From contig BBFS01000156.1 in the NCBI GenBank assembly GCA_001313365.1, positions 1-6,418 on the forward strand: a DNA stretch of 6,418 bases. The letters are read 5' to 3'. The notes under the pieces were generated by a model. The model made no database searches. It saw only the letters and a program-made list of their open reading frames with translations, and was not told where the DNA came from. The translations under genes and the position numbers were made by a program. Positions within the stretch are counted from its first letter, which is position 1; the number at the start of each line of letters is the position of its first letter. Below are positions 1 through 6,418 of this stretch, piece by piece. This stretch comes from Paenarthrobacter nitroguajacolicus JCM 14115. GTDB taxonomy: Bacteria > Actinomycetota > Actinomycetes > Actinomycetales > Micrococcaceae.

Positions 1-2339
1 CGGGCGGGCCCTGGCACGTGCCGGCCGGTCAGTGGCCCGTTGCCCCCCAGGTGCCGTCCGGGGCAACCCAGGTGCGTGTGAGCCTGAGCCGTACCCGATC
101 CGCTCGAGGACGGAGATGACAGCGTCCGGATTCGGTGTGGCCGGATCAACGGATAGGACGCGTCTGAGCGGGCTATCGGCGGAGTGCCCTGTTCCCTGCA
201 GGAGGAGCTGACCGTCGGTGGCGAGCAGTGATCCGTCGCCGATGACAGAGCCCAGCAACAGGCCCGAAGCCAGAAGGGCGCCTTCAATCCCGGACCGATC
301 CGCGTCCGGGATGCCGTCGGAGAAGTCAACCGCCCGCCACAGCGGGACTGATCCTTCCGGGCCAGTGCCCAGCCAGGAAGGACCCGCCGGGGGGGTTGGT
401 CGATGGCTGCTTGGAGCTTGGATTTTTCGTCATCAAGCCCGGCCCGCTGCAGCACGTCAGTTTTGTCCGCGTTGTCAAGGGAAAAGAGTGCTGAGTCATG
501 GCGCTGACGGGCGGCGGTCCCCTTGATGGTGGCCGCCCTGTCTAGCTTGCCCAGTGAATTGGGGGGGTCGGTCAGAACAGAATCGGGGGGTTTTGAAGGA
601 ACGCTTTGATCGGGTCGTGCCCGAAATCCACCGACAAGGGCCTCGGTCGTCTCGGGTGCGCTGACCCACCCCCCCCTCCACTGGTCCGACAGCGCGGTCA
701 GCTCCGACCTGAGATGGTCGGCAGCCTCGGTTGCCTCGGCCGCAGCCTTATCGGCACGGTCCTGGTCCTCTTCCGCCCGCTGGTCAGCTGCGGCAACCTT
801 CGATTTTTCTTTCTCCAGTTGTCGGGCCTGATCGAGCCGGGCACCCGCTTGCCGCTGGCGCATATCCGCTGCTTTGATTGTCAGGCCGATCCGCGCCTGC
901 TCGCCAGAGATGTCGGCGGGCGTAACGCACAGTACCGCGGCGGCCGGCCGGTCAACAGGTTCGGGACCGGCTTTCCGGATGGTACGGACGGTGTCCATGG
1001 CGGTAACGGCATGGACTGCATGTACAGACGCGGTGCCGGCGAAGTTCGCCGGCACTCCTGCGGATCCTAACTGGGCGTGAGCTTCTGCTAGTTCGCGCCT
1101 GCTTCCTTCGCTGCCTGTTCTGCGGCCACGGCACGGGTGGACGCATCCCTGACACGTGAAATCTCGTTGCGCCGCGCCGCTGCTGCCGCTGAAAAGGCAC
1201 TGTCCGAGGACCGGGCCAGAGCGGCGATCTTCCGCTCCCTTTCATCGAGGTCGCGGGCATGGGCGTAGGACGCTGACGACTTGATACCGGTAATGGTCGC
1301 TTCGAGGTGACCTTCGGCGTCGACGAGTTCAGCCACGGTCCTTTCTACCTTCCGCTTCACTTCGACCATGTTCAAATGTTTCGAGTGGCGCTGGTCTGCG
1401 TGATGCAAGGCTTGCTGGGCTGCTATCGCCGATTCATCGGCAGCGGTGGCGGCGCCCGCGAGGACCTTGGCGGCGTACTTCCGGTACGTGCCGAAAAAGG
1501 TGTTGACGTGCCGGTAGGCCGACTCGAGGCGCTCTTGCCCTGCACGGGTCTCGGACAGCCCGTCGAGCTGTTCACCGGCTGCGTTCAAGGCTGCCTCGCC
1601 CAGGGGGGGCGGCAACGCATCGGAAAGGATCTGCGGAAGGCGCCCTTCCTCGATGCGGTTTCCGACATCGGGAGAACGAAGGGTGTGGGTCAGCTGCATC
1701 AGCCCGACGAACCGGTCCCGGCCTGATTCGCCTGTCAGGCCGTACACAGTGTTGCGCACCCGCTCACGATGTACCTCCGGTGAATCGGTGATCCGGTCGG
1801 CCCCGATCAGCGAGGTCAGTTGGTCACGGGAGAGGACCTCCCGGGTTGAGGACATCAGCTGCAGGTCGTGCCCCCCACACGCAGGGGTGTTGTGAAATAC
1901 CAGACCTTCGCGTCTCCGGTGGATTGTGAGAACCGGATGAACGCACCGAGCGTCAGGTGCTCAACATGGACTCCGTCGTCGGCGGCGTCCCCCCCGGTTG
2001 TTGTTTCCCGCACTAATTCAAGCCACAGGTAGCCTTCGCGCTACCGCCAGGGGTGCTGCCGGCTTTCATCAGGTCCTGGAGCCGGACCTTGCCCGAGCCG
2101 GTGGCATCCATTTTCCGACGGTCCGCATCCAGGAGGTAGGGCAACAGCATCTCAAGTGCCCGGGACTTGCCGGATCCGTTCGTGCCCCCCCGCAGCACGA
2201 GGCGGCCGCCGGAGCAGTTGAATGTGGCGTCATGGTAGTGCCAGACGTTGAGCAGGCCAGCCCGGCTCATCCCCCACCGTTGCGGGTTGTGGCGGCCGAG
2301 AATTTCGGCAGTGTCGTGTCCGATGGCGGAAGTTGTCAT
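1..2339 (-). CDS. jetC: JetC, SMC/MukB-like ATPase of type II Wadjet (TIGR02680 family); 3' end outside window; frame broken
   Basis: ATPase and coiled-coil subunit of a Wadjet condensin, which binds ATP and extrudes DNA loops. The N-terminus carries the family signature SRAGLLNVWHYHDATF, then the Walker A loop GTNGSGKS (2163-2186) and ALEMLLPYLLDAD. Further on are EGYLWLEL, a LTLGAFIRFSQSTGDAKVWYF strand region, SDALPP, a long Ala/Glu/Arg-rich coiled coil (about 1560-700) and VPLWRAVDFSDG (about 330-305), then VAPDGTW near base 50. About 775 residues are present. Walker B and the signature motif should lie beyond base 1. The ATG at 2339 overlaps the jetB stop (ATGA). Frame changes are needed at C6 1871-1876, G7 389-395 and C6 43-48, at about 2036-2045 and about 1092-1098 (one base short) and near 75-95. 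The frame between about 590 and 690 is uncertain. Between breaks the protein looks fully conserved. Family assignment is from remembered motifs. Confidence 0.92.
1033..1055. repeat. Perfect 11-base inverted repeat with 1-base centre inside jetC
   Basis: GTGCCGGCGAA, then G, then TTCGCCGGCAC. It lies in a coding stretch for GVPANFAGTAS, where the coiled coil appears interrupted. A second inverted repeat, GTCCATG/CATGGAC (993-999 and 1010-1016), is adjacent. Either codon choice or a hairpin-forming element could explain this. Confidence 0.6.
2163..2186 (-). other. Walker A (P-loop) codons of jetC
   Basis: These codons encode G-T-N-G-S-G-K-S, the ATP-binding P-loop, about 55 residues into JetC. 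This is the usual position for a TIGR02680 protein. It is directly preceded by the C7 tract 2185-2191, which reads as an extra glycine (LRGG rather than the family-like LRG), consistent with a tract of 4 read as 7. Confidence 0.93.
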
Positions 2340-3632
2340 GGCTGGTCCTGGGGTGCGGTATGGGAAAGGTCGGGGAAAAGCGTATCGGTTTGTTCCAGAT
2401 GACCTCCGGGGGTCGCCTCGAGCCGGTGCAATGACCGTGGCTTGGCACTGGAGCGGACAGGTTCGGGCCGGTACCTGCCGCAGGCAGCATGCAGCACGAG
2501 TCCGTTGTCGGTGGCCGTCGCCAGATCGACGGATGTGAGGATCTGGACGACTTCGGTACGCAGGCGGGCGAGGTCGTCGATGACGTCGTTGCGCCAGTTT
2601 CGGGAATTTTGCTCGGCGAGGTGCTCAAGGTTGTCATCGACCAGTTCCCAAGTCGCCAGGACGCCCGGGACGAGCCGGCCGCGGATCAGGGCCTCCGCGC
2701 CTGAGGATGGGCGGAGGGTGTCAATGAGGGCGTCCAAAAGCAACAGTGCGGCCTGCCGGGCTGTGCCGTTGCCGGGGGGAAGGCGACATCTGTCATCTCT
2801 TCTTCGGTGTCGTAGGCAGAACTCCTTCGGCGCGGACTTCCAGTTTCAGCCCGAACGCGTCCGACAGGGCCTGGGCGACGTCATTTCTTTCGCGGGACAG
2901 CGCGTCACGTTCATTCTCGGTGAGGTCTTCACGGCGTACGAGGGGGGGTTTTCAATGATTCGGCGCCGCAAATCACGTCGTGGCTGAGCTGGAAGGTCCG
3001 GGTCGGGTGCCCACAGCTGATCAGGCTCCTCAACGGTGTAGAGCGGGCGCGCGAGCAGCTGAGGCAGCAGCGACCGGTTGATTGTCAGGAGCGCTTCATC
3101 GTTCCGTTCACCCCCAGCCGGTAACAGTCCCGTCCGTTTCGATGAGCACACCCCATTCGAGCAGGAGGCTGATGGCGGCAACCAGTGCTCGCCGTTCAAC
3201 GAGGACGTCGTCGATGCTGAGCCCGGCGGTGGCGGCGTCAGCGCGCAGCTGTTCAACGAGCTGGGAGAGCAGGATTTGTTCGCCGGCTGACGGTGAGAGC
3301 AGCCCGGCGCAGATCAATGCGAGGTATGTGTAAGCGCGGGGGGGAGAAATCACTGCCGTTGCTGCGCCGGGCCGGGCGCGCGGGAGCCTCCATCGGCAGC
3401 GGAGCTTTGGTGAGTCTGGCGAAGCTCGCCTCAATGATCAGGGTGTACCCGGCGGTTGTGGCGAACGTGGATTTCAATGCTGATGCGTTCCGGCGGACCA
3501 GGGCCATCTGCTCGGGGGGTACCGTGCGGTCGTCATTATGGGATGCATGAGCAGGAAGCGTGCTTCTTCTTGCCTCTCGGCGTCGGCATGCGCGGATGTT
3601 CCCGCCGGCTCGCGGGCGCCGGGGGGGATCAC
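2336..3632 (-). CDS. jetB: JetB, MukE-like subunit of type II Wadjet (TIGR02678/DUF2398); frame broken
   Basis: Winged-helix accessory subunit that, in Wadjet complexes, bridges the JetA kleisin and the JetC heads. The start is GTG at 3632, inside the jetA stop (GTGA overlap); the stop TGA at 2338-2336 overlaps the jetC ATG. The reconstructed product is about 428 residues, near the usual family size. Segments in order: AERQEEARFLLMHPIMT, EQMALVRRNASALKSTF, AYTYLALICAGLLS, a DDVLVERRALVAAISLLLEWGVL helix pair, NDEALLTINRSLLPQLLA, LVRREDLTENERDAL, the family-like RAEGVL, then MTDVAFP and a helical C-terminus. Frame changes are needed at G6 3514-3519 (fits 4), G7 3338-3344 (fits 6 or 3), C5 3111-3115 (fits 4), G7 2942-2948 (fits 5), about 2815 (one base short) and G6 2774-2779 (fits 4). 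No membrane or signal segment is seen; the protein should be cytosolic. Confidence 0.9.
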
Positions 3633-5152
3633 CGGGTCCCCGTCATTGCGCGTTCAACGGCGAAGGAGACGTCCGCGGGGGTGAACCTCCAGGAGGAGGT
3701 CATGAACGGTCAATGACCCGTCGTCGCTGTAAATCACGGTGCGGTGACCCTCTGCGGGGGGGATGACGATGAGGGTCAGGCCGAGGCTGGTGTCCGTGTG
3801 GACCATGGCTTCAGTGAGGTCCTGTTCGGCCGCCATGAGGGCTCCGAAACGGTCGAGGAGCAGTTCCCTCGCTGCCGGCGAGAGGCGCGCGCCATTGAGG
3901 TTTTCGGACGCTATGAGTTCGGCTGTAGCAGCTTCCAGACGCTCGGCCTCTTCCTGGGCCTCGTTAAGGAGGATTTCGCGTTCGAGGCCAGGGTCCAGTA
4001 CGCGGCTGGCGCGTCCCCCCCGTGCGGCGCGGTCACCTCGCTCCCGCAGCGACAAGGGCACATCAACCGGTTCGGCGTCACCAGGAAGTGGTGGGGGCCC
4101 TCCCGTCCGTTGTCCTCGTCCGGACCGCGGAGCAGGTGTCTGGAGGGGGGGTAAGCGCCGAAGGCCGCATTGAAGATCCGGTGGGAGGTCTTCGCATCGG
4201 AGGCGTCGAACCACTGTGCCAGGCGCAGAAGGTCTGCACGTCGGGACACTCCGGTGCCCGTTGCGGCGAGCATGCGTTTGGCGTTAGCGATGAGCTGCGC
4301 CAAAGCCTGGTCAGCGGCACCGCGCAGTTGGGCGGGACCGGATTCGCCGCTGCGTCCGGTGTACCAGGCGGTGAGTTCATCCCAGTCCTCGGCGCTGCGC
4401 CCCGGGGGGGACCTCTCCGTAATCGTGCCATCGGTGTCAGGCAACGAGGGCAGCGAATCGAGGGCGTCCAGCATAACGGACAGCCGCGACTCAAGCGCTT
4501 CAAGGAGGGTTGCGATTGCGGGGGGCGTGACGGGAGACGTCGGCGCTGATCAGGTCGACGTAGCTCATCAGGATCTCCTTGAAGCCTGCATACTCGGGGC
4601 CGCCAAGGTCGTACCGGGAGATACGGGACTGGACGAAGGCGTAAAAATCCTTGGAGGAGTCTGCGAACAACCGCTGGTTCTGGAACACAGTGGTGACCTC
4701 GCCGGCGAGAGCGTCGGCGTCGATCGACTCAGGATTGTCGAGGCGGTTGCTGATGCGCTGAAGCGTCTCAACTGTGACGCCCAGCAGTTCCCTGGCCACT
4801 TCACGGGCGCCGTCGCTGGCTTTGAGTAAATCCTTGACCTGTCGGGCTACCCGTCCGCCGAGCTTGGATACCTGATACCGGGAGCGGGAGCTGACCCATT
4901 CGGCCACCGTGGCAGCACGTGCGACGCGAACCGACCGCACAAGGTTGCCCCCCCACTGCTCCAGCTGGCGACAGCGGACTTCAAGGTCGTCGATACTGAT
5001 CTGGGTACCGGAGCGCTTAAGCGCCCCCCCTGCGCCTCACCTGCCGATAGGTCGGCCAGGAGGGTGGAAGAAAATAGGCTCATGATGGCGATGTACTCTT
5101 CGGCATTGTCAGCTGTCACGTACCGGTACAGATCGTCGCTCCTGCGTTGCAT
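3629..5152 (-). CDS. jetA: JetA, kleisin-like subunit of type II Wadjet (TIGR02677/DUF2397); frame broken
   Basis: MukF-like kleisin linking the SMC heads. First gene of the operon; product about 500 residues, as expected. Family-like segments in order: DDLYRYVTADNAEEYIAIM near the start, IDDLEVRCRQLEQWGNLV, a long helical middle, LRLAQWFDASDAKTSHRIFNAAFGAY, PSRHLLRG, a TTSW motif, DAEPVDVPLSLRERGDRAARG, RASRVLD, a helical stretch and VIYSDDGSLTVHDLLLEV. The start used is ATG 5152, behind GGCGGAGG. An upstream ATG (5183) has a stronger G-rich ribosome site but is one frame off. Frame changes are needed at C7 5024-5030 (fits 5), G6 4520-4525 (fits 5), G5 4093-4097 (fits 4), about 4075-4082 (after TTSW) and G5 3677-3681 (fits 4). 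With the last correction the gene ends at TGA 3631-3629, overlapping jetB. Confidence 0.9.
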
Positions 5153-5317
5153 CTGCCTCCGCCTGTGTTGCGCCAGCGTCCATCACGGAATCCCCCTCTG
5201 CTGATTGCTGCCGCGCTAGGGTCTGTTGCCCTTGGTCGGTAGGTATTTCGTTGTCTGGCCCACAGTAGGGCAGTGGTGCGACACTTTGATCGGTCGCGCT
5301 CGCCGTACGTGAACGAA

Positions 5318-5347
5318 AGTATCACGATCTGGTAGAGATGTCACCAA
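5318..5347 (-). promoter_or_regulatory. Candidate promoter for the jet operon
   Basis: On the minus strand TTGGTG (5347-5342) is followed after 18 bases by GATACT (5323-5318). The start of transcription would be near 5311, giving a leader of about 160 bases before jetA. The match is moderate. It is supported mainly by position, in the only AT-rich stretch upstream of jetA, and by the back-to-back arrangement with a much better plus-strand promoter. Confidence 0.35.
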
Positions 5348-5353
5348 AAGGTC

Positions 5354-5383
5354 TTGACGAATGTCCAAGGATAGATCTATAAT
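5354..5383 (+). promoter_or_regulatory. Near-consensus sigma-70/SigA-type promoter, plus strand
   Basis: TTGACG (5354-5359), an 18-base spacer and a perfect TATAAT (5378-5383). Predicted start near 5390. No protein gene on this strand follows, but a strong intrinsic terminator lies about 300 bases downstream, so the promoter should drive a short transcript. The spacer contains the 10-base palindrome ATAGATCTAT (5371-5380), partly overlapping the -10 box, which could be an operator or a coincidence. Confidence 0.65.
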
Positions 5384-5455
5384 ACGACATTCAACAAGGG
5401 GCTGTCCGGTGACTGGAAGGTAAATAGCGCTGCTGCGCAGAAACAAGGGCATGGA

Positions 5456-5524
5456 ATGGCATCCGACGAAGACAAGGGCGTCAACTACGGATCAGCTGAG
5501 GTGACGGTCCGCGTCACTTGCTGA
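5456..5524 (+). CDS. Possible 22-residue peptide inside the predicted small RNA
   Basis: ATG at 5456 to TGA at 5522-5524, beginning MASDEDKGVNYGSAEV. No clear Shine-Dalgarno precedes it beyond a loose AAGGGC at 5445-5450. Its 3' half and stop codon lie inside the hairpin 5491-5525, which suits RNA structure more than coding. No family is recognised. It could be an incidental ORF or a leader peptide. Confidence 0.15.
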   Translation: MASDEDKGVNYGSAEVTVRVTC

Positions 5525-5525
5525 T
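5491..5525 (+). other. Long RNA hairpin
   Basis: ATCAGC (5491-5496) pairs with GCTGAT (5520-5525). After a TG bulge, AGGTGACG (5499-5506) pairs with CGTCACTT (5512-5519) with one G-U, around the loop GTCCG. About 14 pairs in total, in the 5' half of the predicted small RNA. Confidence 0.6.
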
Positions 5526-5590
5526 TTCGCCCACTCGGTCAGTTAGTTCCCATGGGTAGTAGCTGAACAAAACCGGGGGGGAATCACGGT

Positions 5591-5622
5591 GGTTTACATT
5601 TGGCGCTTTTCGCCAACAAACC
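5591..5622 (+). other. Compound RNA hairpin
   Basis: GGTTT (5591-5595) pairs with AAACC (5618-5622). The inner TTGGCG (5600-5605) pairs with CGCCAA (5611-5616), loop CTTTT, with an asymmetric internal loop between the two stems. It has no T-run after it, so it is not a terminator. It is probably a structural element of the predicted RNA. Confidence 0.55.
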
Positions 5623-5658
5623 CTAGCTCTCACAACGTCGGCTATTAGTCGACTTTAG

Positions 5659-5694
5659 AAGGCGGATAGCGAGCAATCGCTGTTCGCCTTTTTT
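5659..5694 (+). terminator. Intrinsic (rho-independent) terminator
   Basis: AAGGCG (5659-5664) pairs with CGCCTT (5685-5690) and AGCGA (5668-5672) with TCGCT (5677-5681), with GAT/GTT internal loop and a GCAA tetraloop. Six Ts follow at 5689-5694, the first two within the stem. Strong in the plus direction. In the minus direction the stem is followed only by TTCTAAAG, so it may serve the HNH gene (stop at 5734) weakly. Confidence 0.85.
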
Positions 5695-5733
5695 GTGCCC
5701 AGCTTGAGGGAACGCAGCTCCGCTGGTGGATGT

Positions 5734-6418
5734 CTATGTTCTGGAGGGGCGGTGTCCGGGTAGGGGTGGGGCTTTTGATTGATAGCTGTGTCCGGTGGGG
5801 GTGCTGATACCCAAGGTGTGTATACCCCCCCGTGCACGTCGGCATGTACGGTTTTGCTGGCCCAGCCGGGGTTTTCCTTGGTGTGGTTGCACGCCTCGCA
5901 CAGACCTGCACCGTTGGCGAGGTGTGTTTTCCCTCCGGAACGCCACGGAAGAACATGGTCGATATGCCGGATGGGCGCATCGCAGTACGGCATCCGGCAG
6001 GTATCGTCGCGGGTTTCAATGAAACGCCGAAGCCTCGTCGGGAAGAGCCGGGCTTTGGAGTCCATGCTCAGGAGCTCGCCACTGGCTGGTGCGGTGTAGA
6101 GCCGGCGAAGCCAGACAGTGAGCTCTGTATCCGGCGTTCTCGCGTGGACCTGGCCGGTTTGTCCCGAACCGACTATTTCCCGTGCCCATTCGGCGGGGGA
6201 CTATTCCGTAGCCCTTGAGCCGGGCTGGTTCGCTGTCGCCTTGGAACAGGGTGCGGTCGGTCATGACGAGGTCCAGGTTGATCCCTGAAATCCCGCCCGG
6301 TGTACCGGTGACGCGCTCGACCAAGGTATCGGCCATGACCTGACCACGAGTCGGGACAACACCAGAGCCCGCATCACCGCTGGAACGGGCCGAATCAGCA
6401 GCACGGCAAAGAGCCGCA
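5734..6418 (-). CDS. HNH endonuclease of the DUF222/13E12-repeat type, C-terminal part; 5' end outside window; frame broken
   Basis: Typical actinobacterial 13E12/DUF222-HNH protein, cut off by the window edge. The visible DUF222 end includes [17 protein letters not shown] and [15 protein letters not shown]. The HNH domain follows: [20 protein letters not shown], a CRMPYC pair, HIDH (5955-5966), [14 protein letters not shown] and PGW. These give the paired cysteines and the H..N..H metal-binding set. The tail reads [20 protein letters not shown] and stops at TAG 5736-5734. Two homopolymers break the frame: G5 6195-6199 (fits 4) and C7 5825-5831 (fits 5). Once both are allowed for, the reading is continuous and the catalytic residues are present. 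The family is common, often multicopy, with poorly defined biology. Nothing ties it functionally to the neighbouring Wadjet genes. Confidence 0.88.

Follow-up and report, generated by a model that had tools for sequence, protein, structure and literature searches.

Lengthened G/C homopolymers in the Wadjet type II operon and HNH endonuclease gene of Paenarthrobacter nitroguajacolicus are most likely sequencing or consensus errors

Results

A Wadjet type II operon and an HNH gene with broken frames

The window analysed here, positions 1 to 6,418 of contig BBFS01000156.1 from Paenarthrobacter nitroguajacolicus JCM 14115, carries the JetA, JetB and JetC genes of a Wadjet type II defence operon and, next to them, a gene for an HNH endonuclease of the Arthrobacter type. 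As written, all four reading frames are broken, and many of the breaks lie at long runs of G or C. We put at about 95% the probability that the lengthening of these runs arose during sequencing or consensus building and is not a feature of the organism. Wadjet is an SMC complex, JetABC, with a further subunit, JetD, and cleaves circular DNA such as plasmids (excerpt of PMC10586767).

The three Jet genes stand in order on one strand and belong to the families JetA2, JetB2 and JetC2, as in Wadjet type II (JetABCD). JetA is recognised by Pfam PF09660 on three pieces and by PADLOC as JetA2 on one, an assignment that two of its relatives also received; JetB is recognised by PF09661 on two pieces and as JetB2. 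For JetC, of which only the N-terminal part is present, PADLOC gave JetC2, and TIGR02680 matched two pieces, both under the whole-protein cut-off. The locus differs from a complete type II system in its broken frames, in its partial JetC and in JetD, which would lie beyond the contig end. It is otherwise of a known and ordinary kind, the Wadjet type II operon of a bacterium resembling Arthrobacter.

All four genes have intact relatives. Six JetA relatives are 78-91% identical by frameshift-aware alignment, the nearest full-length one reaching 91% (88% by BLASTP), and JetB is 79% identical to the copy of Arthrobacter sp. B3I9. A locus from genome G868, probably that of B3I9 and called L125 here, has open frames for JetA, JetB and JetC, followed by JetD2, and aligns to positions 2-5288 of the window at 77% identity. 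The HNH gene is 88-91% identical in DNA, gaps aside, to four aligned loci with HNH genes of Arthrobacter and Paenarthrobacter, and differs from these in a frame broken at two G/C runs. In the operon, JetA loses its frame at four of nine G/C runs of at least five bases and at two deletions off the runs, JetB at five of seven such runs and at one deletion, and JetC at four of ten and at four other sites.

Differences between the window and its relatives concentrate at third codon positions. The ratio of non-synonymous to synonymous substitution rates (dN/dS) is 0.147 for JetA (509 codons), 0.167 for JetB (434 codons), 0.270 for JetC (770 codons) and 0.120 for the HNH gene (221 codons), and the four genes are thus under purifying selection (dN/dS 0.12-0.27). 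For this reason they are not old pseudogenes. Long decay of the operon would account for frameshifts in all four genes as written; however, third-position changes prevail, selection is not relaxed and the damage clusters in G/C runs, so that an old pseudogene is scarcely credible.

G/C runs are lengthened, not added

Direct counting in the window (G+C 0.636) gave 16 G/C runs of length 7 (10 G, 6 C), one of 8 and six of 6, exactly the numbers that a first-pass annotation of this DNA had obtained by eye; its "about seven" runs of 5 are in fact eight, and there are 16 runs of 4. The baseline comprised Micrococcaceae loci of Arthrobacter and Paenarthrobacter genomes, 897,710 bases in all (G+C 0.637), from which 38.5 G/C runs of 4, 8.9 of 5, 0.33 of 6 and 0.01 each of 7 and 8 are expected per 6,418 bases. 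For all runs of at least 6 the expectation is 0.36 against 23 observed (Poisson probability of 23 or more, 1.7e-33), which bears out the first-pass view that the distribution is unlike natural DNA.

Runs of 4 are scarce (16 against 38.5), and the total of runs of at least 4 is as expected (47 against 47.7). Since this total is unchanged while the runs of 4 are deficient, runs were lengthened, not added. A runs never exceed 5 and there is a single T run of 6; A/T runs of 4, 5 and 6 number 18, 4 and 1 (expected 11.8, 2.1 and 0.4), with none of 7 or more. Among 80 relatives' loci, the densest stretch of at most 6,418 bases holds 3 G/C runs of at least 6 and 1 of at least 7, compared with 23 and 17 in the window, and the whole set holds 5 runs of at least 7 in 894,128 bases. 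The HNH-based genome scan kept 80 of 313 loci; the difference between 894,128 bases and the baseline set is evidently the locus L083.

The excess over relatives is one-way

The 31 G/C runs of at least five bases were compared with relatives in a hand tally over protein and DNA alignments, which disagree in places. Twenty-four are longer in the window and none is demonstrably shorter; two are equal, four are ambiguous and one has no comparator (Table 1). The excess is one base in 6 runs, two in 9 and three in 9. Original lengths were obtained by subtraction, many relatives having no pure run at the site (for example, one with an interrupting base); if the surplus sits inside the run, they would be 4 for 17 runs, 5 for six and 6 for one. 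Fifteen of the 24 lengthened runs break the frame, in all four genes, and the nine with three extra bases are frame-neutral. The first-pass annotation had listed 13 tracts by their coordinates: each is a complete G/C run of the length given, and the shorter lengths it fitted agree with the relatives at 13 of 13. Its list was incomplete, with no fit for the nine in-frame tracts or for 585-590 and 3338-3344.

The excess is found in the operon and in the unrelated HNH gene, as had been claimed. In JetA, all nine runs are longer than in 6 of 6 relatives by frameshift-aware alignment, one or two gaps sitting five or six bases off the run in the relatives P0124, P0125 and P0126. With B3I9 as the sole relative, five of seven runs are longer in JetB (two ambiguous) and eight of ten in JetC (one equal, one ambiguous); a Streptomyces copy, used for frame changes only, reveals additional ones near 163-186. 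Of the HNH runs, two are longer than in 8 of 8 relatives and a third, 5797-5801, is equal in 4 of 4. The eight relatives were picked by descending score among loci with an open frame of at least 350 and at least 150 aligned codons.

Placement of the extra bases depends on the alignment at a few sites. For runs 4015 and 5825, the DNA alignment leaves the run and the two bases on either side without a net gap. It sets the gap of run 4015 eight bases ahead of the run, where 6 of 6 proteins have it inside; for run 5825 it sets the two extra bases 3-10 bases ahead, with, by eye, an equal score inside the run for the relative L003. At runs 561 and 3756, DNA alignment assigns two extra bases to the run and a third to a site a few bases ahead, and protein alignment gives three. 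Run 1989, at -2 by DNA alignment and +3 twice by protein alignment, was tallied as ambiguous.

G/C tracts of 7-8 inside coding frames could suggest a phase-variable contingency locus, in which slippage at the tracts toggles the operon. Such a locus has one or a few long tracts and a frame toggled in a single step; here 24 of 31 runs are affected, two of them in the HNH gene, and each gene has at least two breaks at once, so that no single slippage step restores a frame. Relatives carry shorter tracts at the same sites, and the three-base difference at nine tracts would toggle nothing. We consider phase variation hardly worth entertaining.

Table 1. Genes and G/C runs of at least five bases in the window ("excess", longer than in the relatives compared; "fit", shorter length proposed in the first-pass annotation)
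Feature	Position	Strand	Basis	Fit
JetA (DUF2397, TIGR02677)	3632..5183	-	Pfam and NCBIfam on three pieces; PADLOC JetA2	
JetB (DUF2398, TIGR02678)	2335..3650	-	Pfam, NCBIfam, PADLOC, B3I9 alignment	
JetC (TIGR02680, SMC-like ATPase), N-terminal part, ends at contig edge	3..2348	-	NCBIfam, PADLOC	
HNH endonuclease gene, Arthrobacter type, C-terminal part, ends at contig edge	5737..6417	-	Pfam HNH, protein records, eight relatives	
C run of 6, excess	43..48		alignment to B3I9	4
G run of 7, excess	389..395		alignment to B3I9	5
G run of 7, excess, frame-neutral; one extra base six bases ahead by DNA alignment	561..567			
G run of 6, excess	585..590		alignment to B3I9	
C run of 8, excess, frame-neutral	669..676		alignment to B3I9	
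G run of 7, excess, frame-neutral	1603..1609		alignment to B3I9	
C run of 6, excess	1871..1876		alignment to B3I9	4
C run of 7, ambiguous, divergent stretch	1989..1995		alignment to B3I9	
C run of 7, excess, frame-neutral, immediately ahead of JetC P-loop codons	2185..2191		alignment to B3I9	
G/C run of 5, equal to relative	2271-2275			
G run of 5, ambiguous, gap close by, relative with six G	2408..2412			
G run of 6, excess	2774..2779		alignment to B3I9	4
G run of 7, excess	2942..2948		alignment to B3I9	5
C run of 5, excess	3111..3115		alignment to B3I9	4
G run of 7, excess	3338..3344		alignment to B3I9	
G run of 6, excess	3514..3519		alignment to B3I9	4
G run of 7, ambiguous, divergent JetA/JetB junction	3621..3627			
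G run of 5, excess	3677..3681		six JetA relatives	4
G run of 7, excess, frame-neutral	3756..3762		six JetA relatives	
C run of 7, excess by protein, frame-neutral	4015..4021		six JetA relatives	
G run of 5, excess	4093..4097		six JetA relatives	4
G run of 7, excess, frame-neutral	4145..4151		six JetA relatives	
G run of 7, excess, frame-neutral	4404..4410		six JetA relatives	
G run of 6, excess	4520..4525		six JetA relatives	5
C run of 7, excess, frame-neutral	4948..4954		six JetA relatives	
C run of 7, excess	5024..5030		six JetA relatives	5
C run of 5 directly before JetA, ambiguous, two relatives conflict	5192..5196			
G run of 7, intergenic, no comparator	5575..5581			
G/C run of 5 in HNH gene, equal	5797-5801		4 of 4 relatives	
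C run of 7 in HNH gene, excess of two bases at run or immediately ahead of it	5825..5831		8 of 8 relatives	5
G run of 5 in HNH gene, excess	6195..6199		8 of 8 relatives	4

Short runs are spared and few breaks lie elsewhere

In the DNA alignments, 200 of 214 comparisons at G/C runs of 3 were free of gaps within two bases, as were 26 of 28 at G/C runs of 4 and 33 of 34 at A/T runs of 4-6; these figures count comparisons, not runs, some runs being compared with up to four relatives. Because A/T runs and short G/C runs are nearly gap-free, the error requires a G/C run. The flanks of lengthened runs and of unchanged runs of 4, inspected by eye and without a statistic, revealed no separating feature.

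Seven frame breaks in the conserved genes lie away from runs of at least five bases (near 74, 635, 1098, 2038, 2818, 4080 and 5135), and six of them are deletions of one or two bases. Both of those in JetA recur against 6 of 6 relatives, and the break near 2038 sits in a divergent stretch. Three frame events outside the conserved coding part were excluded, namely 5242 and 5202, before the JetA start, and 2365, in the last JetB codons. The first-pass statement that inflated runs break every gene stands for the runs, which break all four, with the amendment that six small deletions off the runs break frames too.

The first-pass annotation had also raised true G-tract instability. The long tracts would then be real: G/C tracts would have expanded in a recent burst, for example in a lineage with defective replication or repair, and inactivated the genes; this would agree with the G/C specificity of the excess, and low dN/dS values would persist after a very recent burst. 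However, it needs 24 separate lengthenings with zero demonstrated shortenings, mostly from tracts inferred to be 4-5 long, in a group whose genomes are poor in runs of at least 7, and the six deletions off the runs demand a second cause. Known phase-variable poly-G tracts are longer than these. A real expansion thus appears very improbable.

Search for contigs with the same signature

Viral contigs were scanned twice for paired neighbouring runs of 7, and 236 loci were counted among the matches listed. The maxima among them were 26 runs of at least 6 and 12 of at least 7, against 23 and 17 in the window. Two of the 236, L129 and L180, have at least four runs of 7 and more 7s than 5s. Neither was accepted as the same pattern: in L129 the runs cluster within the first 412 bases and in L180 mostly towards the ends, and long open frames occur elsewhere in both. 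Run positions were inspected in four of the 236 loci. In L129, a viral contig, eleven G/C runs of 5-7 lie within about 400 bases (10-412).

Surroundings of the operon and its relatives

The interval separating the HNH gene from JetA contains, on the + strand at 5655-5695, an inverted repeat with six T behind it; by eye, this resembles an intrinsic terminator. In L125 a ThiF-family gene (838-2256), not an HNH gene, lies immediately upstream of JetA; the neighbourhood of the window thus differs from that of the B3I9 relative.

A second locus, L126 (G799:C1:1779000-1791000), holds at 8964-9477 the upstream region of a type II JetA and its first 136 residues, 90% identical to B3I9 JetA. Directly after this fragment, on the same strand, come JetA1, JetB1, JetC1 and JetD1 of a type I Wadjet (2189-9012), each match spanning most of its profile. 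The arrangement looks as though the type II genes had been exchanged for a type I set downstream of the type II promoter.

A search of 395 genomes with the TIGR02677 profile found matches in 7, none close to the window, and a genome scan with a JetA piece as query returned no relative; for stretches from genomes G440 and G598, the frames were listed only. The window had no near match among plasmids, a distant search giving 8 records with none spanning 80% of the window. It had no distant match among phages, and one 27-base pattern had no exact match in viral contigs.

Discussion

Combined, the run statistics, the one-way excess, the intact relatives and the purifying selection lead us to infer a technical cause. 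An error of base calling or consensus building is the best reading of the lengthened runs and the simplest, as the effect is one-way, base-specific and gene-blind. The excess is limited to homopolymers, and the six deletions found besides fit a generally error-laden sequence. The first-pass annotation had favoured the same cause as the simplest and had supposed the genes to be intact in the organism; the former is supported by a G/C-only, gene-independent excess with A/T runs spared, the latter by purifying selection and the intact relatives.

According to this explanation, G/C runs truly about 4-6 bases long would often have gained one to three bases in the written sequence, reaching 7 or 8 at most. 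Overcounting would hit G and C runs alike and spare none of the four genes; A/T runs, and G/C runs of smaller length, would be read correctly, and the few deletions of one or two bases elsewhere would probably be errors too. In the organism itself, both the Wadjet type II operon, with JetD expected past the contig end, and the HNH endonuclease gene are most likely intact. Our guess is that the run-length estimate for G/C runs was miscalibrated in a long-read workflow. The excerpt of PMC7483855 notes an apparent sensitivity to calibration errors in a Bayesian repeat-count model for nanopore run lengths; that a miscalibrated step of this kind would yield an excess in G/C runs only is our own suggestion.

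The window shares with long-read homopolymer errors, as described in excerpts of PMC8486125, PMC12007338 and PMC11232133, that insertions and deletions cluster in homopolymers and that conserved genes have broken frames. It differs in showing lengthening, in G/C runs only, with 7 the commonest length. Because these excerpts report mainly deletions, with a partial bias to A/T, the direction of the change is not one that ordinary nanopore error predicts; most deletion errors come after runs of four to five in the excerpt of PMC12007338. Our narrow search of the homopolymer-error literature brought up no account of runs lengthened in G/C alone and peaking at 7.

Several points weigh against an error as the cause. 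Firstly, nanopore homopolymer errors are described as mostly deletions, longer runs tending to be underestimated and some lengths largely overestimated (excerpt of PMC8486125), and the homopolymer errors still left by the best pipelines as mostly in A and T (excerpt of PMC11232133). Secondly, an error accounts neither for 7 as the commonest length nor for the 16 runs of 4 left unchanged beside an inferred 17 lengthened. Thirdly, over the whole operon even the nearest relative in DNA is just 77-79% identical. Finally, no locus with the window's pattern was found among the 236 viral loci counted in the matches listed, and one of them exceeds the window in runs of at least 6 (26 against 23), so that long G/C runs alone are not unique. 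There is also a slim chance that the sequencer overcounts because G or C carries an unrecognised base modification, an artefact reflecting real chemistry, or that short G/C tracts have really expanded in recent times.

In conclusion, the lengthened runs are most likely not biological. Contigs with such a signature seed databases with false short proteins, and working defence operons look like pseudogenes in them. The signature offers an easy screen: G/C runs of 4 are deficient, a second peak stands at 7 and A/T runs are normal.

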